DNA from: Ensifer sp. LC163
Lineage (GTDB): Bacteria > Pseudomonadota > Alphaproteobacteria > Rhizobiales > Rhizobiaceae
Assembly (NCBI RefSeq): GCF_001695855.1
Contig: NZ_MBSS01000023.1
Span: forward strand, 62,001 to 126,000
Length of the DNA: 64,000 nt
Reading direction: 5' to 3'
A model generated the notes under the pieces. It was given only the letters and a program-made list of their open reading frames with translations, made no database searches and was not told the origin of the DNA. Each line of letters begins with the position of its first letter. The stretch's first letter is position 1. Below are positions 26,019-36,337 of this stretch, one piece after another. A program made the position numbers and the translations under genes.

Positions 26019-29000
26019 TCAGATCGTCAGCGTCTGGACCGCGCCATCGCCGAACTCGCAATCGAGTTCCCACCCGGTGCCGACTGAGCGGACACGCAAG
26101 AACGTCGCCCCATCTCCCGGCGCAGGCCGCGTGGCATTCACGACGCAACGATATGTCCTGGCACCATCAGGAATCGCGATCGTCTCGCTGTCGACGATCT
26201 CCTCGTCGATGCCGTTTGCGAAGGGATAGGGCGCAAACATCGCCGCCGTGTGGATCGAGTGGAGACGGGTGATGAGAGAGCCATCCTCATTGCAGAGGTC
26301 GACCGTCGCGACGCAGGCCCGGTGTTCGTCGCCCGAGAGAAACACCACATGCTCGATCCGGTTCTCGGCGATATAGGCCAGCACCTCGCGAAGCGTGTTG
26401 GGATAACCGTCCCAACCGTCGGAATGCAGCGCGCTCAGGTTTCTCCAGGAGAGGCTGCCGTCGCGCTGTATGGCGCGACGGTGCCGCGGCAGCAACATCG
26501 CCGGCGACACGACGAATTTCGGCGCCGGCGCCAACAACAGCCATTGCTTCAAACTCTCCATCGTTGCCGGCGCGACCATCGCAGCCGCCTTCAGGCCGTC
26601 GCCGACCTTGCGGTACGTGCGTTGCGTCCGCGTGTCGAGCATGAAGAAATGGAAGCCGTCGAAATCGAACATCTCAAGCTTGGCATGTATGCCGCACTGA
26701 TATTTCCAATAGGCGTCGATACCGCGCGTCGCCTTGCCGGCATTGTCACAATCGTCGGGCTCGGCGCTCGGTTCCCGATTGTCGGGCTCGGCGATCGGTT
26801 CCCAATTGTCGTCGATCTCATGGTCGTCGAGCAGCATGAAGGACGGGATCTGCCTGAGGACGTTGCGCACGCTGCGCTGGCTGAGCCAGGTTTCATAGGG
26901 CAGGCGGTAGCGATCATCCCGCCCGGTCGGGTCATAAAGCCCCGCCGTCGGGTCGACGTAGACCTGGTCGCCGACAAAGAGCGCGAACCGCGGCTTTATG
27001 CCGGCTTTCGCCTCCAGCCGCTCGCCGATGCGGCCATAAGATTGATAGGCTGCGGCCTCGTCGAGAAAACCAGCCGGATACTGGCACGAAGAGAGCGTAA
27101 AACTCGTGCCGCTCGGCGTCGGCTCCAAGGCCGGCAGTAAAGGTGGATCGTAGGGGATGATGCCATCTCTGAGGTCGAAGTCCTGTTCGACAGCGGGCAA
27201 ACGTGCCGTCTGCCTGCCACCCTGACGCTTTGCGTTCGCAGAAGGAAAGGCGATTGCACGCTCTACCGCGGCCGCCATTTTCTCAAACCGGCCGAAGGCG
27301 AATGCAACTGCCTGCCCGTTTGAAACATTGCCCGCCCCTGTCGGATCCAGCCGCCGCATCCGCCTCTGCGCGATATCGGCAACGAAATAGCCGTAGGCAG
27401 GTCCTTGCCCGGCGCGACCGGGCTGCGTCAGGCCCCGGTCAAAGTCGAAGGTCGGCAAGGACGGACCTGCTCCAACATTACCGGTCGGCCCAACATCACC
27501 GGTCGGGTCGGTCCGAGCGACGGCCTCGCGCAACACGATCACCGGCGTCGGCGCGGCGACGGGTTCAGGGGGTGGCGCTGGCTCCTCGTGGTCGAGGTCA
27601 GGTACCGCCAGAAGGGCATCTTCGTCGTAGACCAGCAGGACCAAAAAGGCGTTGCCGCGATTTGCCCCGTTGCCCGGCATGCGGGCCAACAGCGGGACTT
27701 CGAACGCGTCCCAACCGTCCTCCTCGAGTTCTTTCGAGGCATAGACCACCAGATGCTCCATGAGATAGCCCGTATCCCAAGGCAGCGCCGCGTCGTCCGG
27801 CCGACAGATACGATCGTCGACGAGCTGGATGCGCAGGAGCAGCGCGGCTTCGGCCGCCCGGTGGGACGGCGCCGAACCAAGCCGGATGACGAGCGCCGGG
27901 GTCTTCGGGCGCTCTTCTGTGAGGATCGGCCCGATCCATGGCGGATAGACGGCTTTTTCGCTGTCGGCGCTGTGGGCCCGTCCGGGGATGTCTGCGTCGA
28001 GGAACTGCTGGATCCGCTGCATCGTCGCGTGGCGCGCCGTTCCGACCAGCGCATCCTGATGGCCGGCACCCGGATTGACGAACGGCGGGGTATAGATCCG
28101 ACCGGCATCGCCCAGGATCTGTCGCATGCGATCAACAGTCGAGACGTGCGATAGACCGTTTTCTGCGCCATGGACGCTGAAGGTCGGGAACGACCAGTGC
28201 CTCTCCAGGTTCTGACGCGACACCAGGCGGTTCCGTCCGTGAAAATCGGTCATCGTCGAACAGCGCACGAAATGCAGGGTGGACGATACCGTCGACAGGC
28301 TTAGCGGACCGAAATGCTCGTCAATATGGCGCAGCATCTCGGGCTCCATGTTGCGCACGTTGAAGTCGCGACCGTAGAGCGCGTCCATGCGATGCCGCGT
28401 GCGCGTCCATGGCGTTCGCTTCGTTGGCCATAGCGGGTTTTCGACATCGAACTCCTCGACGGGATAGGGCAGCGTCGACAGCAAACGATCGAGAAGATCG
28501 TCGGCGAGCGTCGGTTCCTTCGGGCAGAAACTGTAACTGTCCGGCAGGAAATCCATGAGGTACCGTACGACATAGGCACGAAAGATGTTGGCCGGCGCGA
28601 AGACGATGAGCGGGCCAACCTGCGTGAACGCTGCGCGATTGACGAGCCCGGTCGCATGACCGTTCAGCACCGCGATGCTGAAGACGACGGTTCCCATGCA
28701 ATGGGCGATAACGTCGACCGTCCCGTCCGGCGACGTCGCCGCCACCGCCTTCAGCGCTGCCGGTACGTCGACATTGCCGATCTGGTCGAAGCTCCACGCC
28801 TCTGTCGCCGTTGGCTGGCCGGCACTGGTTCGCAGATCGGCGATCCATATGTCACGGCCCGTGCACCAGAAATGGCTGGCGAAATTGGGATTGACCGCAT
28901 GATGGGCAAAGGTCGTGCCGCTGGCACTATAGCCGTGGAACATCACCAGCGGGCGCTTTTTGGTGTTGGGATGGCGATAGCGCGTCAGGCGCACTTCTCC

Positions 29001-31835
29001 GGGAACATCGTCGCCTCCGCCGTCCGGCCGTTCCCGCGCTATCGCGATGCGATGCAGTTCGGCGGTGATCGATGCGCCGCCCGGCAGGCTCAAAGTGGTC
29101 GGTGGCAGGCGGTTGACAACCGCATCCGGTGGCCGCTTGTCTTGGTCTGGCGCACGGAAGCTCCAGATGTGCATGCCAAGCAGAAGCCGCGTCACGAAGC
29201 CGAAGAACGTCAGGAGTTCGCCGATGGTGTTGGCGCCATCGCGTTGATTGACGATCCGAAACAGCGGCACGCTGATCCGCGCGAGATAACCGGCGTCGAG
29301 CTTCAGGACGCGCTCGCGGCTGTCACCGTTCAGCCCGGGAAACCTGTCGAGCGTCACTTCCATGAGCTGGCGCCAGGGATTACAGCGCCGCTCGTAGGTG
29401 AAGGTCTTGGTACCGACGATGCGGTTGTCGCCGAGCGTAATCTTGCCGCCCACGTCCGGTGGTCCGATGGTCAGATCATAACGGAGTGTCCTGATCTCTC
29501 CGGAGCGACTGGCGATCGCGAATGCCGATTTGGCCCGCGCCCAGGTCCCGGGTCCACCATCGCCGTCAACACGTGCCTGGTAGCTGTCGCGCAGGCCCCG
29601 GTTCAGCACCCACGCCTTGCCGGCGCGCCATACGCGCCCAAGCACCGTGCTCCGCTGTCGCTCGAATATCCGCAGGCTGCCGGAGATCGGCGCGCTGAAT
29701 TCGACGGCGGCATCGAGTTTCTGCTCCTTCAGATGCAAAGGCAGCCAGGTCTTTTCCAACGCTTCCCAGGTATCCCTTGGGAAAATCCGGATCTGGCTCC
29801 GGATGGCACGAGCCGGCACTTCGGTCGCGACACGAATGATCGGGTGGCTGCCATTGTTCGGCGTCAACTGTCCAAGCGTCGTGGGTGTGAACCGCATGGT
29901 CAGCTCGACGATCCGGGTTTCCTCGACCCCACCCTTCGGCGTCAGCCGAACGGGGCCGACAAGCCGTTCGATGATCTCCACCTCGCTCGACTGAGCTCGC
30001 GCGGCAACGTCGGTGCTGCGAAAGACGGGCCGGACCAGCGGTGCGCCGACGGGCCGGATTTCGGCCGCCGCATAGTCCCATTCGGCCGCCAGCGCCTCTG
30101 CCGCGCGCAGCGCAATCGCCGCAATCGTCAACGCGGGGTTCGTCGCAAGCGCTGTCGGAACAATCGACCCGTCAAGGACGACCAGACCATCATGCACCGC
30201 ATCGGAATCCGTCGACGTGAACACGCGGCCAAGATGATCGACCACACCGTCCGCGCCGGTATCAGCCATCGCGCAGCCGCCAAGCGGATGAACCGTCGCC
30301 AGCGGTCCACGTTGATCCCTAAGCAACCAGGCCAGGTCGGCCGGCAACAGCTTCCAGACCGGATTGGGAATGAGGCGACCGCCAGAGTCTTTCGTCAACG
30401 CCGCGAGCGCCTCGACCTCCTTGTCGAAGACGGGCAGGCTTTGCAGTTTGTCCCAGCGGATCCGGGCAATGCCATCGCGACCGGCAGCGACTGGATCACC
30501 GTCGAGCTCGATCCGGCCCGCCGCGCCATCATCGGCCATGACGGCATAAAGCGCCGAGCGCCCGATACGTTCCGCCGGCACCGCATAGATATCGTCATCC
30601 GGAAACCCTTGCCGGTGCCTGGTACCGTCATATCTTGCAAGACCGTGCAGCGTATTGAGCGTGGCAAAAACCTCGGCGAAGGCGATGCGCAAAGCTGCCG
30701 GCACCGACATTTCCTCGATCATCACACCGGCGGAGGCACGCAGGTCGATCACGCCAGTGATCGTCGGCCCGATGGCCCGGGTCGATGGCTTGACCGTTTC
30801 GTCGGCGACGGTGTTGACGTCGGCGCCGGTGGCATAGTCGGCGACCAGCATGTCGCCATTGGTCGAGCACCGCGTGCCGAGGTTCCTGTCCGCCAACTGC
30901 AGGCCTGCGCCTCGCGACCGCATGAGAATTTCGCTCGAGCCGAGCGTACCGGCGGCGAGCACGACCTTGCGTGCCCTTATCGGCACCGGATCGGCGTCGC
31001 GCTTGCGGAGCTTCGCGTTGGTGTGAACGGTTCTGATGATCCACCCGGCATCTCCTTCCCTGGCTATGCTGAGCACCGTCGCGCCGCTGAAGATTTCGGC
31101 GCCGTATTCATGCGCCCGTACAAGCAAATTGACGTCGAGCGAGTTCTTCGCGCCACCATTGCAGCCGGTCGCGCAATCACCGCAGCGCACGCATTTGTTC
31201 AGGCGCACATTGCCCGAGCTGGTGGTGTCACTCATTGCGACCGTGATCGAAGCCGGCCGGAAATTGCCGTCAGGCGCGATGGCGCGCACCGAACGAAACT
31301 TTTGTGGCACGCCGTCGACATGATCGGCGATGGTGTTGGGGGCGCCCATGATGGTGCCGCCGAGCAGATCGCGGGCACGATCGAAACAGGACTTCCAGGC
31401 CGAGAGATCCTTCAGGGCAGTCGGCCATCCCTTGTGAAATACTTCTGGCAGCGGCGTTTCCATGACACCGGCATTGATCAGCGAACCGCCGCCCACACCA
31501 TTGGCGACGACGGCAATGACCTCCTCGCCAATTCTGATGTCGATCAGCCCCTCCTTGTTGTTGTCGCCGCGAATATGGCGCGGCAATTCACCGAGCCCTG
31601 TCGGAAACGAGCCCGGCAGATATTCACGCCCGCGCTCGAGCACGCCGACGGAGATCGGTCGGCCCCCATGCGTGCGGCCGGCGAAGGTCGACGCGGCGAT
31701 GGAGCCGCCATAACCGCTGCCGATGATCAGGACATCGAAGTGCACATCGGCAGGCGCCTTGCGAACGCGATCAACCAGCCGTTCGAAGCCCTGCGATATC
31801 CAGGCCGTTTTCGATTCCGTGTCGAGGTCGCTCAT
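26019..31835 (-). CDS. Giant fusion: GMC oxidoreductase + alpha/beta hydrolase + PhoD-like phosphatase
   Basis: A 1938-residue protein. Residues about 30-575 are a GMC/cholesterol-oxidase-like FAD enzyme: dinucleotide motif LIIGSGYGGS, GVGGGSLINAGV, a Cys cluster CVRCGDCATGC near 217, and a C-terminal VPTALATNPALTIAAIA. After a GMC-type linker comes an alpha/beta hydrolase (about 950-1280: VMFHGYSASG; nucleophile elbow AHCMG near 1045, Cys instead of Ser). A low-complexity Pro/Glu-rich linker follows near 1420-1450. Residues about 1575-1938 are a PhoD-like metallophosphatase (SSCQYPAG, FVGDQVYVDPT, LLDDHEIDDNWEP, FLSGDEHRA). GGAGG sets ATG 31835, which overlaps a 41-codon ORF by ATGA. No signal peptide is seen, so it appears cytoplasmic. 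Sterol, lipid or polyester chemistry is conceivable but unproven. Confidence 0.88.
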   Translation of the reverse strand: MSDLDTESKTAWISQGFERLVDRVRKAPADVHFDVLIIGSGYGGSIAASTFAGRTHGGRPISVGVLERGREYLPGSFPTGLGELPRHIRGDNNKEGLIDIRIGEEVIAVVANGVGGGSLINAGVMETPLPEVFHKGWPTALKDLSAWKSCFDRARDLLGGTIMGAPNTIADHVDGVPQKFRSVRAIAPDGNFRPASITVAMSDTTSSGNVRLNKCVRCGDCATGCNGGAKNSLDVNLLVRAHEYGAEIFSGATVLSIAREGDAGWIIRTVHTNAKLRKRDADPVPIRARKVVLAAGTLGSSEILMRSRGAGLQLADRNLGTRCSTNGDMLVADYATGADVNTVADETVKPSTRAIGPTITGVIDLRASAGVMIEEMSVPAALRIAFAEVFATLNTLHGLARYDGTRHRQGFPDDDIYAVPAERIGRSALYAVMADDGAAGRIELDGDPVAAGRDGIARIRWDKLQSLPVFDKEVEALAALTKDSGGRLIPNPVWKLLPADLAWLLRDQRGPLATVHPLGGCAMADTGADGVVDHLGRVFTSTDSDAVHDGLVVLDGSIVPTALATNPALTIAAIALRAAEALAAEWDYAAAEIRPVGAPLVRPVFRSTDVAARAQSSEVEIIERLVGPVRLTPKGGVEETRIVELTMRFTPTTLGQLTPNNGSHPIIRVATEVPARAIRSQIRIFPRDTWEALEKTWLPLHLKEQKLDAAVEFSAPISGSLRIFERQRSTVLGRVWRAGKAWVLNRGLRDSYQARVDGDGGPGTWARAKSAFAIASRSGEIRTLRYDLTIGPPDVGGKITLGDNRIVGTKTFTYERRCNPWRQLMEVTLDRFPGLNGDSRERVLKLDAGYLARISVPLFRIVNQRDGANTIGELLTFFGFVTRLLLGMHIWSFRAPDQDKRPPDAVVNRLPPTTLSLPGGASITAELHRIAIARERPDGGGDDVPGEVRLTRYRHPNTKKRPLVMFHGYSASGTTFAHHAVNPNFASHFWCTGRDIWIADLRTSAGQPTATEAWSFDQIGNVDVPAALKAVAATSPDGTVDVIAHCMGTVVFSIAVLNGHATGLVNRAAFTQVGPLIVFAPANIFRAYVVRYLMDFLPDSYSFCPKEPTLADDLLDRLLSTLPYPVEEFDVENPLWPTKRTPWTRTRHRMDALYGRDFNVRNMEPEMLRHIDEHFGPLSLSTVSSTLHFVRCSTMTDFHGRNRLVSRQNLERHWSFPTFSVHGAENGLSHVSTVDRMRQILGDAGRIYTPPFVNPGAGHQDALVGTARHATMQRIQQFLDADIPGRAHSADSEKAVYPPWIGPILTEERPKTPALVIRLGSAPSHRAAEAALLLRIQLVDDRICRPDDAALPWDTGYLMEHLVVYASKELEEDGWDAFEVPLLARMPGNGANRGNAFLVLLVYDEDALLAVPDLDHEEPAPPPEPVAAPTPVIVLREAVARTDPTGDVGPTGNVGAGPSLPTFDFDRGLTQPGRAGQGPAYGYFVADIAQRRMRRLDPTGAGNVSNGQAVAFAFGRFEKMAAAVERAIAFPSANAKRQGGRQTARLPAVEQDFDLRDGIIPYDPPLLPALEPTPSGTSFTLSSCQYPAGFLDEAAAYQSYGRIGERLEAKAGIKPRFALFVGDQVYVDPTAGLYDPTGRDDRYRLPYETWLSQRSVRNVLRQIPSFMLLDDHEIDDNWEPIAEPDNREPSAEPDDCDNAGKATRGIDAYWKYQCGIHAKLEMFDFDGFHFFMLDTRTQRTYRKVGDGLKAAAMVAPATMESLKQWLLLAPAPKFVVSPAMLLPRHRRAIQRDGSLSWRNLSALHSDGWDGYPNTLREVLAYIAENRIEHVVFLSGDEHRACVATVDLCNEDGSLITRLHSIHTAAMFAPYPFANGIDEEIVDSETIAIPDGARTYRCVVNATRPAPGDGATFLRVRSVGTGWELDCEFGDGAVQTLTI

Positions 31836-32308: not shown

Positions 32309-35300
32309 ATGGGAAAAAACGATCCGCTCCTGGAGGGCTTCCTGCCACTGGAATTGCTCGGCAGGATCCATGGCGCCAACGGCGACCGCCCCGCGGCCGT
32401 CGAGTTTCCGGCCGCGGTGTTGTTCGTGGATGTGTCGCGTTACACGGCCCTCGTCGAACAGTTGGCTCGGCGCGGACAGGAAGGCCTGGAGCAGATCCCG
32501 AAACTGCTGACGCTTTCCTATGCCCGCTGTGCCGAGCAGATCTGCAGCCGTGGTGGCGAAGTCCTCTATTTCTCCGGCGATTCCCTCCTTGCGTACTGGG
32601 CCGCAGGCAATGCCGGCCTTGGCCATGCCGTGCGATCCGCAACCGACTGCGCAGAAGCAATCTGCCGCGACCAAGGCGCTCGACCGGAGGCGGCCACGGG
32701 CGAAGTCGGGCCTGGACTTCATGTCGGCGTCGGAGCGGGACAACTATGGGCCGCAGCACTCGGTGGTCAGCCGGTTTGGAACCTGATTGCCGGCGGCGAC
32801 GCCGTCATGCAGGCAGCAAGTGCGCAGAGCCGGGCCCGTCGCTGGGAGTATGTGCTGTCGGACGGCGCGACAAAGGCGATTTCGCTTGCGGAGACCGCAA
32901 GCGGTGAAGATGCGCCTGACGGCGCGCCTTCGGCGCCGCCGACGCTGCGAACCGAATGGTTGGCAGGCTTCCTGCCACCGCAGTTGCAAGACATCGTGCA
33001 GGCCACGGAGAATGCCGCTGTCGTGGCCCATTACGGTTTCCCGCATGCCGAAGGCAATGGTCCGAGAGCGGACGTGCGGCTGGACCGGCTTGCCGAGATC
33101 CGGCCAATTTCGGCCCTGTTCGCGCGGATCGCCGGGCTCGATCACAGCGACCCGATGGCACTCGCCCGCCACCATGACCTCTGCACCGCGCTGCAAGCCG
33201 ACCTGCAGAATTCAGGCGGGCCACCCGGCGAACTGCTCTTCGATGACAAGGGCCTCGTCTTCATCGCGGCTTTCGGTGCCCGCGGCACCTTTCACCGCGA
33301 CGACCCGCAGCGCGCCGTCGATGCGGCACGGGCCATCTGTCGAACTGCCCAACGCTTCGGCCTCGCCGTATCGGTGGGTGTGGCGACGGGCGACGCACTC
33401 TTTCGCGTCGTCGGCAGCGCCCGCAGGCGCCAACTGATGGTTCTCGGGCCGCCGGTCAATCGTGCCGCCCGTCTGATGGCGGTCGCTGCGGATGACATTC
33501 TCTGCGATGCGCCGACCGAGCGGGCAAGCCGGGCAGCGTTCTCCTTCGAACGGCGTGGCGCGCTGCAACTGGAAGGCCTCGGCGACATGGCGCCGGCGTT
33601 CCGGCCCCAGACACGGCGCCCGGCAGCGCCGATGTCGACGGGCCTCATCGGCCGTGAACGTGAGCTGCGGTTCCTGAGAGCCACATTTACCAGCGTCAGT
33701 AGCGGCACCAATAGCCTGGTGGTCGTTCTCGGCGAACCGGGCATCGGCAAGACCAGGCTCGTCACAACCTTCACGAACGAATTGCGGGCAAAGGGTGCGG
33801 TCGTCGCCGTTGCACCCGCCGAGCGCGATGACCGGCGCACCTCCCTTTGGGCATGGCGGCGGGTCATCGAGACCCTGCTTGGCCTGCCCGCCGACAGCGA
33901 TGGTACCCGCCTGTTTGAACGCATTCATGACCGCGTCAAGAATGACGCAGCCATTGTCGCGCGGCTTCCCCTGCTTGCCGACGTCCTGGCCGTCGACATC
34001 CCCCAGAACGAAAGTACGAAACACCTCGACGGCGCACACCGGGCGGACGCAACCATGCGCCTGATGGGCGACATCATCGCTACTGCTGCTCCGCATCCGC
34101 TGACCCTGGTGCTGGAAGACAGCCAATGGCTCGATTCAGCCTCGTGGCGGCTCGTGGAATGGGTGCTCGGTTCGCAATCGTCGCTGCTGGTGATCCTGTG
34201 CGTTCGATCCGAGGAGATTCCGGAAGAGGTGAAAAGCCTCAGGCGCAGGGCCGAGTCCGCCCGCCTCGGCGCCGGGACATCGGAGACCGACGATCCGGCG
34301 CGCTTTTGTCAGCTCCTGGAGCTTGACGAGCTGAACGATGCCTCGATCTGGAAGCTGGTTGAGCGGACGTTGGGCAAGGCGCCGCCGCATGACGAACTGG
34401 CGCATCGGATTTCACAGCTTGCCGGCGGCAATCCGTTCTTTGCCGAGGAAATCGCTTTGACGCTGAAGAGCGAGGGTCTGATCGCCATTCGCGATGGTTT
34501 CTGGCGCTCCATCCGACCGCTCGACGACCTCAGATATTTCGAAGGTGTCGAGCGGGTCATTCGCGAGCGTCTCGATCGCCTGACCGGCTCGGCCCAGGAC
34601 GTCATCAAGGCTGCGGCCGTGGTCGGACGCTCGTTCACCGCCACGGAGCTCAAGTCCCTGCTGGAGCCGGAGTTGGACGGCGAGAGCGTCTATGCTGCGC
34701 TCGAGACGCTTGTGGCCGCCCATCTGGTGCGCGCAGAAGAGCAACCGGGAAACTATGCGTTTCGCCACGACCAGACGCGCGACGTCGTCTATGGATCCAT
34801 TCCGGGGGACCTGCGCAACCGGCTTCACGGCGCGCTCGCAACCTGGATCGAGGCCGGTCGGAAGGTTGCGGTAGGCGCCGACGTCGCCGTCCTCGTTCAA
34901 CATTTCGAAGCGGCGGGCAACAACGAGAAGGCAGTGAAATATGCCGATCTCGCCGCGACCAACGCACTGCAGATCGGCGCCTTCCGCGAGGTCGAGGCGT
35001 TTGTCGGCATCTGCCTCGGTCACGAACCCCGGAAGCAACCGTGGAGTGACGATCAACGGCTGCAGGCCGTCCGTTGGCGCCGGCAGCTCGCCGAAGCCCA
35101 CTATAGCCGGGGCGATATCCACGCTCAGGGCGTTGCCGTCCGGCGGGCGCTGAAGGCGGCCGGCGCCCCCGTGCCGACCTCGGCGAGCGGGACGCTGGTC
35201 GGCCTGATCCTGCGGGGTGCCCGGCTTGCCTACCAACAGGCGTTCCCGCCGTCACCGGACTGGGCTGGAAAACCGAACCGCTTGCGGTGGGAGCGCGAAA

Positions 35301-36337
35301 TGGCCCGTTGCCTCAACCAGGCGGCGATGGTCGACTATTTCGAGCTGCGCTTCTCGCGCGGAATGTGCAATCTCGTCGGCGCCGTCACCCATGCGGAGCG
35401 CACTGGCTCTTCCGTCGAAACCGCGGTTGCGTCGGCACAACTGGCCTGCGGCTTCGGCATGATGGGCTGGCGGCGCGTATGCCACCACTTCATGTCGAGG
35501 GCCGAAAAGGTCGCGATCGAGATCGCCGATCCCGCAATCCATTCGCATGTCTGCAATCTCGACGCGCTCTGGCGCATCGGCCAGTGCGACTGGGAGATGG
35601 TCGATCGCCGCCTCGATCAGTCGCAGGATCTTTGCCTCAGGGCCGGAGACCAGCTGCGCTGGTGCAATGCACAGGGCATGCGCTTCTGGTCGCTTTACTA
35701 TCGCGGGGACTGGAGCGCGCTGGAGCCGACGGCGCTGACGCTTTTATCTCGGGCCCAGAATGCGGGAAACATCCAGCAGGAAATCTGGGCCCTGCGCTGC
35801 AAGGCCCTTTGCGTGCTGCACATGGATCGACCGCGCGAAGCGGTGGAGGTGCTCAGGCTGATCACGTCGGCCATGCTCGGCTCCGTCGATCTTGCCGCGC
35901 AGATATCGGCGCGCGGGGCGCTGGCGCTGGCGCTCGCCCGCATCGGCAGACACGGCGAAAGCGTCGAGGCGGCCGTCGATACGCTGCGCCTCCTGCGCGC
36001 CATGCGCCGCCCCTCCTCACACAGCACGCTGATCGGCATTTCCGGCGTGGCCGAGGTACTGTTTCGTGGACGGGAGGCCGGCCTGTCGCGCGAGTATGAA
36101 CAATGGGGTCATTGGGAGCGCCAGGTGCTGCATGAGCTTTCGCGCTATTGCCGGGTATTCCCGGTCGGCACGGCGCAATACGGACTGTGGTGCGGCCTGG
36201 CGCACTGGCTGGACGACAGCAAGGACCGCGCGCTGTCGACGTGGAAGCAGGGGCTGGCCGCAGCCAAGCGCCTGTCGCTCAGGCAGGACGAGGCGACCAT
36301 CGCAGCGGAGATACGGCGTCGGCAGGACAATGTCTGA
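32309..36337 (+). CDS. Soluble-adenylyl-cyclase-like protein: two cyclase domains, AAA ATPase, TPR-like region
   Basis: A 1342-residue cytoplasmic protein. Cyclase domain 1 (about 30-190) has both metal Asp residues: D41 in FVDVSRYT and D91 in YFSGDSLLAYW. Domain 2 (about 245-410) lacks them (FARIAG) but has FDDKGLVFIAAFG and the N384-x3-R388 pair in VNRAARLM, as in the C2 half of mammalian sAC. A P-loop ATPase follows (Walker A GEPGIGKT near 475; Walker B LVLEDSQW near 600), then about 500 residues of helical, TPR-like repeats. The architecture predicts a pseudo-heterodimeric cAMP-forming enzyme with an ATP-dependent sensory part. It diverges from the giant oxidoreductase gene, so it may regulate it. 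Confidence 0.85.
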   Translation: MGKNDPLLEGFLPLELLGRIHGANGDRPAAVEFPAAVLFVDVSRYTALVEQLARRGQEGLEQIPKLLTLSYARCAEQICSRGGEVLYFSGDSLLAYWAAGNAGLGHAVRSATDCAEAICRDQGARPEAATGEVGPGLHVGVGAGQLWAAALGGQPVWNLIAGGDAVMQAASAQSRARRWEYVLSDGATKAISLAETASGEDAPDGAPSAPPTLRTEWLAGFLPPQLQDIVQATENAAVVAHYGFPHAEGNGPRADVRLDRLAEIRPISALFARIAGLDHSDPMALARHHDLCTALQADLQNSGGPPGELLFDDKGLVFIAAFGARGTFHRDDPQRAVDAARAICRTAQRFGLAVSVGVATGDALFRVVGSARRRQLMVLGPPVNRAARLMAVAADDILCDAPTERASRAAFSFERRGALQLEGLGDMAPAFRPQTRRPAAPMSTGLIGRERELRFLRATFTSVSSGTNSLVVVLGEPGIGKTRLVTTFTNELRAKGAVVAVAPAERDDRRTSLWAWRRVIETLLGLPADSDGTRLFERIHDRVKNDAAIVARLPLLADVLAVDIPQNESTKHLDGAHRADATMRLMGDIIATAAPHPLTLVLEDSQWLDSASWRLVEWVLGSQSSLLVILCVRSEEIPEEVKSLRRRAESARLGAGTSETDDPARFCQLLELDELNDASIWKLVERTLGKAPPHDELAHRISQLAGGNPFFAEEIALTLKSEGLIAIRDGFWRSIRPLDDLRYFEGVERVIRERLDRLTGSAQDVIKAAAVVGRSFTATELKSLLEPELDGESVYAALETLVAAHLVRAEEQPGNYAFRHDQTRDVVYGSIPGDLRNRLHGALATWIEAGRKVAVGADVAVLVQHFEAAGNNEKAVKYADLAATNALQIGAFREVEAFVGICLGHEPRKQPWSDDQRLQAVRWRRQLAEAHYSRGDIHAQGVAVRRALKAAGAPVPTSASGTLVGLILRGARLAYQQAFPPSPDWAGKPNRLRWEREMARCLNQAAMVDYFELRFSRGMCNLVGAVTHAERTGSSVETAVASAQLACGFGMMGWRRVCHHFMSRAEKVAIEIADPAIHSHVCNLDALWRIGQCDWEMVDRRLDQSQDLCLRAGDQLRWCNAQGMRFWSLYYRGDWSALEPTALTLLSRAQNAGNIQQEIWALRCKALCVLHMDRPREAVEVLRLITSAMLGSVDLAAQISARGALALALARIGRHGESVEAAVDTLRLLRAMRRPSSHSTLIGISGVAEVLFRGREAGLSREYEQWGHWERQVLHELSRYCRVFPVGTAQYGLWCGLAHWLDDSKDRALSTWKQGLAAAKRLSLRQDEATIAAEIRRRQDNV

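Follow-up and report, generated by a model that had tools for sequence, protein, structure and literature searches.

The fusion protein and its closest described relatives

Class I cholesterol oxidase of Acinetobacter (choxAB) is a stand-alone protein of 556 residues (PMC8409315). The flavin adenine dinucleotide (FAD) glucose dehydrogenase of Burkholderia cepacia (BcGDH) is a multi-subunit complex which carries a 3Fe-4S cluster in a cysteine loop at residues 212-222, 12-13 Å from the FAD (PMC6719666). Members of the PhoD family are described as lying outside the cytoplasm, and a phospholipase D of S. chromofuscus is one of them (PMC4223295). Relatives of these enzymes were found joined in one protein, together with an alpha/beta hydrolase, in a 64,000-nucleotide stretch of Ensifer sp. 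LC163 (assembly GCF_001695855.1, contig NZ_MBSS01000023.1, positions 62,001 to 126,000, forward strand), which is called the window. The window protein is denoted W, homologous loci carry L-numbers and genomes carry G-numbers. With close to even confidence, W is proposed to be a trifunctional enzyme of the cytoplasm in which a conserved unit of three activities takes single-chain form.

The gene occupies window positions 26019-31835 on the minus strand as one open frame of 1938 codons and a stop, starting with the ATG at 31835. This start is supported because W aligns from that Met with homologues L002-L005, and a stop within 18 codons upstream closes the frame in L003-L005. The modules are arranged in the order GMC oxidoreductase, middle domain M, alpha/beta hydrolase, linker and PhoD. 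An earlier note, made from the sequence alone, had described three catalytic modules in one frame without giving the strand, and the uninterrupted chain agrees with it. The motifs quoted there (CVRCGDCATGC, FVGDQVYVDP, DDHEIDDNW and SGDEHRA) are all present in W, the cysteine spacing being strictly C-x2-C-x2-C-x3-C. The domain search which it had proposed placed GMC_oxred_N (residues 87-307, 44.3 bits, cut-off 23), GMC_oxred_C (513-575, 44.2 bits, cut-off 24.6) and PhoD (1581-1846, 77.9 bits, cut-off 27) above their Pfam cut-offs in the same chain. Abhydrolase_1 (962-1055, 23.3 bits) fell slightly under its cut-off of 25.8 and is backed by a profile match to gastric lipase. Separate genes with stops between the modules, named in the same note as a possible outcome, were rejected by the open frame of W, and a sequencing or assembly artefact was rejected because the same uninterrupted frame is found in independent genomes. 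The fusion gene has one match in its own genome (G000:C23).

The GMC module resembles class I cholesterol oxidase in its catalytic His/Asn pair, and solved cholesterol oxidases were the top structure matches. Unlike choxAB, it is fused to two more enzymes, and its best NCBIfam match (NF058674, class I cholesterol oxidase type, 145.8 bits) remained far under the 850-bit equivalog cut-off. With the BcGDH alpha subunit it shares the GMC fold and a Cys-rich loop at about residues 212-222. In the fold search of W, fructose dehydrogenase stood at rank 12. The loop of W differs from the 3Fe-4S site of the multi-subunit BcGDH (PMC6719666) by its four cysteines with ferredoxin-like spacing, which would hold a putative cluster. 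PhoD was likewise found by the fold search. As in other members of the PhoD family (B. subtilis PhoD, 2yeq, and S. chromofuscus phospholipase D), all seven metal ligand positions are occupied, whereas the location of PhoD at the C-terminal part of a large fusion and the missing signal-like N-terminus set W apart. The absence of a visible signal peptide had been noted earlier and was also found here by hydropathy: the 19-residue maximum of residues 1-60 was 1.23, in a segment that begins in the FAD-binding strand at residue 35, and no hydrophobic N-terminal segment precedes the FAD motif. Export by a signal peptide, a trait of the PhoD family, was therefore not seen in W by this measure.

Domain M, of about 300 residues between the GMC and hydrolase modules, had no Pfam match and was not identified by the fold search. 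Its homology to the equivalent region of 13 two-module GMC-hydrolase proteins is probable from an hhalign comparison (probability 81.7, E 1.1e-5 over 197 columns), in which the reversed control gave 0.15. For this comparison the PhoD-type rows L093 and L098 were kept out of the two-module set and L094, L095 and L087 out of the other set.

Scanning of contigs from one genome per species gave ten loci matching W over nearly the full length. Nine of them have a single frame and come from Ensifer/Sinorhizobium, Bradyrhizobium, Rhizobium, Solimonas and a Burkholderiales metagenome-assembled genome (MAG), and the tenth, from a betaproteobacterial MAG, is split. Identity to W was 61-92% in seven rhizobial loci, 42% in Solimonas and 30% in the Burkholderiales MAG. 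Whole-genome searches extended this set. Module profiles built from the family, applied to the loci examined, counted 18 uninterrupted triple fusions, all in proteobacteria; of the remaining loci, L078 is a frameshifted copy, three are split pairs, 14 encode two-module GMC-hydrolases, and two genomes have GMC and hydrolase as neighbouring but separate genes. In the window's own genus, nine of 16 genomes possess the uninterrupted gene, one has a frameshifted gene and two have remnants, the other four giving trivial matches or none. In the plasmid collection, 7 of 19 matching records cover at least 80% of W, all seven from Ensifer; six of the 19 were examined in detail, and annotated records carry only the names 'alpha/beta fold hydrolase' or 'GMC (family) oxidoreductase'. 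The family is patchy, since class- and phylum-wide searches with the M+hydrolase profile matched 2 of 385 and 9 of 398 genomes respectively, the window's own genome being included in each count. Matches also occur in G242, G830, G835 and at a second place in G614 (358 residues), and two order-level searches overlapped largely.

In the split pairs the GMC-hydrolase and PhoD genes lie on one strand, as neighbours with a 16-nt gap in L010, where PhoD has its own start codon, as neighbours with a 31-nt gap in L068, and overlapping by 4 nt in L098. L098 sits among the triple fusions in the hydrolase tree; L010 and L068 fall beside L007 there without resolved branching and are sisters in the PhoD tree. 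The GMC-hydrolase/PhoD joint may thus have changed more than once on these trees, in which several branches are long and poorly placed. The fusion is a real protein family. In view of the split pairs and of the phosphoesterases beside relatives without PhoD (see below), the joining looks non-accidental. The family of each module is already known, and two-module GMC-hydrolases are present in databases under generic names. The earlier note had given no described function for the triple form, and none was returned by literature searches directed at the fusion; neither the GMC-hydrolase-phosphatase protein nor the altered triad nor the interchangeable phosphoesterase was described in that literature, which is weak evidence as most subscription journals were outside reach.

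Catalytic positions and selection

His516 and Asn566 of W represent the catalytic pair, His/Asn or His/His, of the GMC superfamily. The histidine was found in 51 of 51 GMC rows and the asparagine in 49, His taking its place in the other two. All four Fe-S-type cysteines are kept in all 51 rows, stand-alone GMC rows included. The residue table leaves out L086, which has lost the Cys nucleophile of the hydrolase, L039 (a duplicate of L071), L087 (the same record as L080) and one short L092 fragment, and L078 was tabulated for PhoD only because its GMC part is interrupted.

The hydrolase module is related in fold and in aligned triad positions to the acid lipases. Gastric lipase was found by fold search, and the family hydrolase profile matched gastric lipase with E 9.9e-16 and a second acid lipase, lysosomal acid lipase, with 6.3e-14. 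In the gastric lipase alignment, Cys1046 falls at the nucleophile, Asn1226 at the Asp and His1259 at the His, residues which form the Ser-Asp-His triad of the lipase. The exchange of Ser for Cys and of Asp for Asn, the bacterial origin and the position within a fusion distinguish the module from acid lipases. Cys1046 and His1259 were present in all 36 tabulated hydrolase rows and Asn1226 in 35. Judged by these alignments, the module is an acid-lipase-like hydrolase with a predicted Cys-Asn-His in place of the Ser-Asp-His triad; should this triad be active, it would represent an uncommon catalytic variation of the scaffold. Polyhydroxyalkanoate (PHA) synthase also has a Cys nucleophile in an alpha/beta hydrolase fold, with Asp as the acid residue. 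W shares the Cys and gives a weak profile match to it (E 1.4e-4), but is closer to lipases and has Asn at the acid position. Of the earlier suggestion that an ester is cleaved, the hydrolase module itself stands, and ester chemistry is doubtful because the nucleophile position is Cys and the acid position Asn. Such a predicted triad could equally be compatible with thioester or acyl-transfer chemistry.

Metal ligands mutated in B. subtilis PhoD are C180, D207, D265, D266, N271, N272 and D436 (PMC4223295). Their counterparts in W, in the same order, are C1584, D1623, D1670, D1671, D1676, N1677 and D1836. The matching was based on this mutagenesis list and on 2yeq alignments, C180 and D207 being equated with C1584 and D1623 by motif. 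W has Asp at the N271 position, and Asp may stand in for Asn as a Ca ligand (PMC4223295). Among 25 PhoD rows, C1584, D1670 and D1671 are kept in 25, D1836 in 23, and D1623 and N1677 in 22. Outside L003-L005 the full ligand set is found in 21 of 22 rows, the remaining row, L093, having N1677D. A loss of catalytic residues in two of the three modules, which the earlier note had named as a refutation, was not found in W, while PhoD ligands are gone in three Ensifer/Sinorhizobium relatives. A 27-bp tandem repeat (2.3 copies, window 26749-26811) lies in the PhoD module of W and adds nine residues directly after the metal-ligand run; it is not present in the nearest relative, L002.

The ratio of nonsynonymous to synonymous substitution rates (dN/dS) over 12 pairs was 0.08-0.19 for GMC, 0.04-0.26 for the hydrolase and 0.11-0.20 for PhoD, which points to purifying selection on the triple fusion in the pairs tested. 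In pairs among W, L002 and L083 the hydrolase showed the lowest dN/dS of six segments (0.04-0.05), and PhoD had 0.12-0.13; PhoD reached 0.18 in the pairs L079/L081 and L006/L008, in which it is intact. These values bear on the explanation that the hydrolase and PhoD are mainly structural, as pseudoenzymes or scaffolds, and that only the GMC enzyme matters. The altered lipase triad, the loss of PhoD ligands in 3 of the 25 rows and the loss of the nucleophile in L086 would fit it. Against it stand the low dN/dS of the hydrolase in the three pairs among W, L002 and L083, the Cys and His kept in every tabulated row (the untabulated L086 being without the Cys) and the PhoD ligands, which outside L003-L005 are incomplete only in L093 (Asp at N1677) and complete in the remaining 21 of 22 rows. 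A purely structural role is considered quite improbable.

Recurrent coupling to phosphoesterases and the proposed pathway

Sixteen loci with GMC and hydrolase modules and no PhoD were found, of which 15 were retained after L100 (a contig of 3952 bases) was dropped. Eight of the 15 (L070, L071, L072, L088, L091, L096, L097 and L099) have a calcineurin-like phosphoesterase within two genes, and six of the eight pass the cut-off of Pfam PF00149. The L088 protein is annotated as such a phosphoesterase and scored 19.6 bits, under the cut-off of 21.5; the L071 protein is its homologue (1.2e-60). In blastp comparison of seven phosphoesterases at E 1e-3, only L072 with L099 and L096 with L097 were linked, which gives five kinds, PhoD being a sixth. 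GMC, hydrolase and phosphoesterase are three consecutive genes in G976 and G895, and a phosphoesterase of the L088 kind adjoins a stand-alone GMC gene in L103.

Genes farther away served as a control. None of 30 genes lying three or more genes away matched PF00149 in eight of these loci, taken from L069-L073, L091, L096, L097 and L099, with L088 unsampled and L096 giving one gene. With the density of 82 PF00149 matches in 11 genomes, the chance of 8/15 within about 10 kb was 4e-11. Of the five Pfam-positive neighbours in those genomes, three (in G638, G964 and G895) escaped this density search, and a 2.5-fold density was therefore also used. It gave 4e-8 for 8/15 and 2e-5 for the six Pfam-positive of 15; after collapsing to 12 lineages it gave 8e-5 for five of them and 1e-3 for four. 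The coupling to phosphoesterases stands, though it is less overwhelming than at the uncorrected density. That phosphoester cleavage is part of one pathway with GMC oxidation and the Cys hydrolase is argued most strongly by the recurrent coupling to phosphoesterases of different kinds, and a shared pathway of the three activities is likely.

Two further arrangements were observed. In L072 (5680-12417) and L099 (5208-12223), a GMC-hydrolase, a RoxA-like cytochrome c and a calcineurin-like phosphoesterase are consecutive on one strand. L101 (1098-5393, minus strand) has a 1432-residue frame with an N-terminal calcineurin-like phosphoesterase of the L088 kind and a C-terminal Fe-S-type GMC module, a second kind of phosphoesterase-GMC fusion; its phosphoesterase scored 22.8 bits in one search and 20.2 in another against the cut-off of 21.5, and 1.6e-73 to the L088 protein.

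In the proposed trifunctional enzyme, the GMC domain would oxidise an alcohol with FAD and hand the electrons, via the putative Fe-S cluster, to a non-oxygen acceptor, by analogy with FAD-glucose dehydrogenase. The Cys-Asn-His hydrolase would form an acyl intermediate on its Cys while cleaving or transferring an acyl group, and the PhoD module, with its metals bound, would act in the cytoplasm. All three steps may act on a single bulky, hydrophobic compound or on fragments of it, which could be phospholipid-like, a steroid or an isoprenoid. In the simplest order the phosphoesterase would release an alcohol and the GMC domain would then oxidise that alcohol. Module architecture and its conservation, the catalytic residues and the recurrent coupling of genes to a phosphoesterase are shown; the location in the cytoplasm, the bound metals and cluster, the path of the electrons, the acyl chemistry, a common substrate and the sequence of steps are inferred. 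A lipid as substrate is a guess. Hints of a hydrophobic substrate, at the level of fold or family only, come from cholesterol oxidase as the closest GMC enzyme of solved structure, from acid lipases as the closest hydrolases, from the phospholipase D of the PhoD family and from the rubber-oxygenase-like cytochromes. The chained reaction suggested in the earlier note gains indirect support for linked steps from the gene neighbourhood (split PhoD operons and varied phosphoesterases); its order of oxidation, ester cleavage and dephosphorylation is unsupported. From the gene coupling a shared pathway is predicted, and with three assayable and mutable active sites on one chain a bacterial, perhaps lipid, pathway becomes testable.

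A wider scheme was also considered, in which a GMC Fe-S dehydrogenase, an acid-lipase-like Cys-Asn-His acyltransferase and an interchangeable metallophosphoesterase constitute a widespread three-step bacterial pathway. Six phosphoesterase kinds would have been recruited to one slot, and in proteobacteria PhoD would have been fused to form an assembly line, on a single chain, for a phosphorylated lipid or isoprenoid. This scheme is rather doubtful as a whole; several phosphoesterase kinds in one operon slot would represent clear non-orthologous replacement. The modules might instead have unrelated substrates and be joined only for co-expression or stoichiometry, with PhoD as a general phosphate scavenger. 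That PhoD is a widespread phosphatase family, that the genome of the window holds a second, stand-alone PhoD (G000:C4:149266-150330) and that PhoD ligands are lost in L003-L005 speak for such a joining. It does not account for several phosphoesterase kinds plus PhoD at the same place, nor for the missing signal-like N-terminus of W in view of the extra-cytoplasmic PhoD family (PMC4223295), and is held to be unlikely.

Several observations weigh against the trifunctional reading. The loci were gathered by similarity searches and are not a random draw. No phosphoesterase was found nearby in 7 of the 15 PhoD-less loci (L069, L073, L085, L086, L089, L090 and L092), L085 having short flanks and the plasmid loci L089, L090 and L092 being judged only from a gene table that is incomplete and from similarity to the seven phosphoesterases already known. 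In a like-for-like, lineage-collapsed count (4/12) the chance was only 1e-3 to 6e-3. L003, L004 and L005 share D1623G and H1672Q; L004 further has N1677S and D1836G, and L005 has Y1626H, N1677H, D1836N and H1838R. Their frame stays open despite the lost PhoD ligands. Within these three, dN/dS was 0.16-0.26 for the hydrolase and 0.16-0.20 for PhoD, which is not clearly relaxed because the two intact-PhoD pairs mentioned above also reach 0.18; their PhoD seems to be still constrained though its chemistry seems dispensable. Two AlphaFold models were of low confidence (mean pLDDT 54.8 and 61.1), of use for fold recognition only, with the distance from Fe-S to FAD unreadable. RoxA-like cytochromes are exported if typical, and their location beside two relatives (L072 and L099) clashes with direct electron transfer from a cytoplasmic protein.

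Feature coordinates and neighbouring genes

Coordinates of the fusion gene, its modules and its divergent neighbour are collected in the table. The linker segment L was not detected in two-module or split proteins, nor in L093-L095.

Table. Positions of the fusion gene, its modules and key residues, and the divergent neighbour in the window
Feature	Window position	Strand	Basis or remark
Whole gene, 1938 aa + stop	26019..31835	-	GMC - M - alpha/beta hydrolase - linker - PhoD
GMC FAD module (cholesterol-oxidase-like), residues 1-592	30060..31835	-	Pfam, NCBIfam, cholesterol oxidase fold match
Fe-S-type motif CVRCGDCATGC, residues 215-225	31161..31193	-	4/4 Cys in 51/51 GMC rows
HPLGGC with GMC catalytic His516	30273..30290	-	His in 51/51 rows
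Asn566, partner of His516	30138-30140	-	Asn in 49/51 rows
Middle domain M, residues 600-895	29151..30038	-	No Pfam family; hydrophobic segment toward its end
Acid-lipase-type alpha/beta hydrolase module, residues 940-1285	27981..29018	-	Pfam match under cut-off, fold and profile matches
Nucleophile-position Cys1046 (AHCMG), replaces lipase Ser	28698..28700	-	36/36 tabulated rows
Asn1226 at gastric lipase Asp position	28158..28160	-	35/36 rows
Catalytic-position His1259	28059..28061	-	36/36 rows
Linker segment L, residues 1295-1410	27606..27953	-	Short, conserved
Variable linker, residues 1411-1560	27156..27605	-	Top dN/dS of six segments in 10/12 pairs (0.12-0.55)
PhoD-type metallophosphoesterase module, residues 1575-1938	26022..27113	-	Pfam, 2yeq match
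PhoD ligand run DDHEIDDN, residues 1670-1677	26805..26828	-	Alignment to B. subtilis PhoD
Further PhoD ligands	C1584 27084-27086; D1623 26967-26969; D1836 26328-26330	-	Alignment and motif
Divergent neighbour, 1342 aa	32309..36337	+	Two class III cyclase-like domains, AAA ATPase, long C-terminus; syntenic with fusion in rhizobia

The divergent gene of rhizobia, intact in 10 loci with the split pair L068 included, encodes a protein of some 1340 residues in which two cyclase-like domains are accompanied by an AAA ATPase. Metal-Asp motifs in the first domain and an Asn/Arg motif in the second are kept in all ten intact copies. Soluble adenylyl cyclase divides its catalytic residues between its two domains in the same manner, and the 1342-residue protein encoded at window 32309-36337, with its motif split and the AAA ATPase after the cyclase-like domains, is like it. 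The gene is broken into two pieces in L002 (3499-7528) and reduced to a remnant in L078 (7529-8485) and L076 (8817-9398), and it was not found by tblastn within the 8 kb examined in L003-L005. A broken cyclase together with a broken or remnant fusion gene in some Ensifer relatives looks like stepwise decay of the unit. No cyclase ortholog was found in the gamma- and betaproteobacterial loci tested, L094 alone giving a distant 24% match at its edge.

This distribution allows a regulatory role of rhizobial PhoD to be weighed, in which it degrades the cyclic nucleotide of the divergent cyclase/AAA protein and that nucleotide controls the GMC-hydrolase. In ten loci an intact cyclase gene that keeps its motifs is oriented divergently from the fused or split gene, which agrees with this, as does the coincidence of a degenerate PhoD with a cyclase not found within 8 kb in L003-L005, possibly a single event of loss. 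Gamma- and betaproteobacterial loci without the cyclase nevertheless keep PhoD intact and have in its vicinity a hybrid kinase, a LuxR regulator or both, and L002 and L078 retain the PhoD ligands with a broken cyclase; such a role is thus very improbable.

The regulators of the gamma- and betaproteobacterial loci are a hybrid histidine kinase and/or a LuxR response regulator. By Pfam, both were verified in L007, L093 and L098 and the kinase in L010, L095 and L073; by sequence clustering, both were found in L011 and the regulator in L010 and L073. The L007 pair resembles NahK/ErcS (333.8 of 400 bits) and ErdR (144.8 of 390), both under the curated cut-offs; these names are reportedly linked to ethanol oxidation in Pseudomonas. 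SDR, TetR and serine-hydrolase neighbours were rejected as partners, being situated 3' of the fusion in W, L002-L005, L078 and L083 and not in L006, L009 and L079-L082. On a Leptospira plasmid (L092, 5504-10520), a two-module GMC-hydrolase is followed by a second, unannotated GMC frame. On a Rhizobium plasmid (L089, 288-11473), a GMC-hydrolase is located near PHA synthase subunits, an alcohol dehydrogenase and a CoA-transferase.

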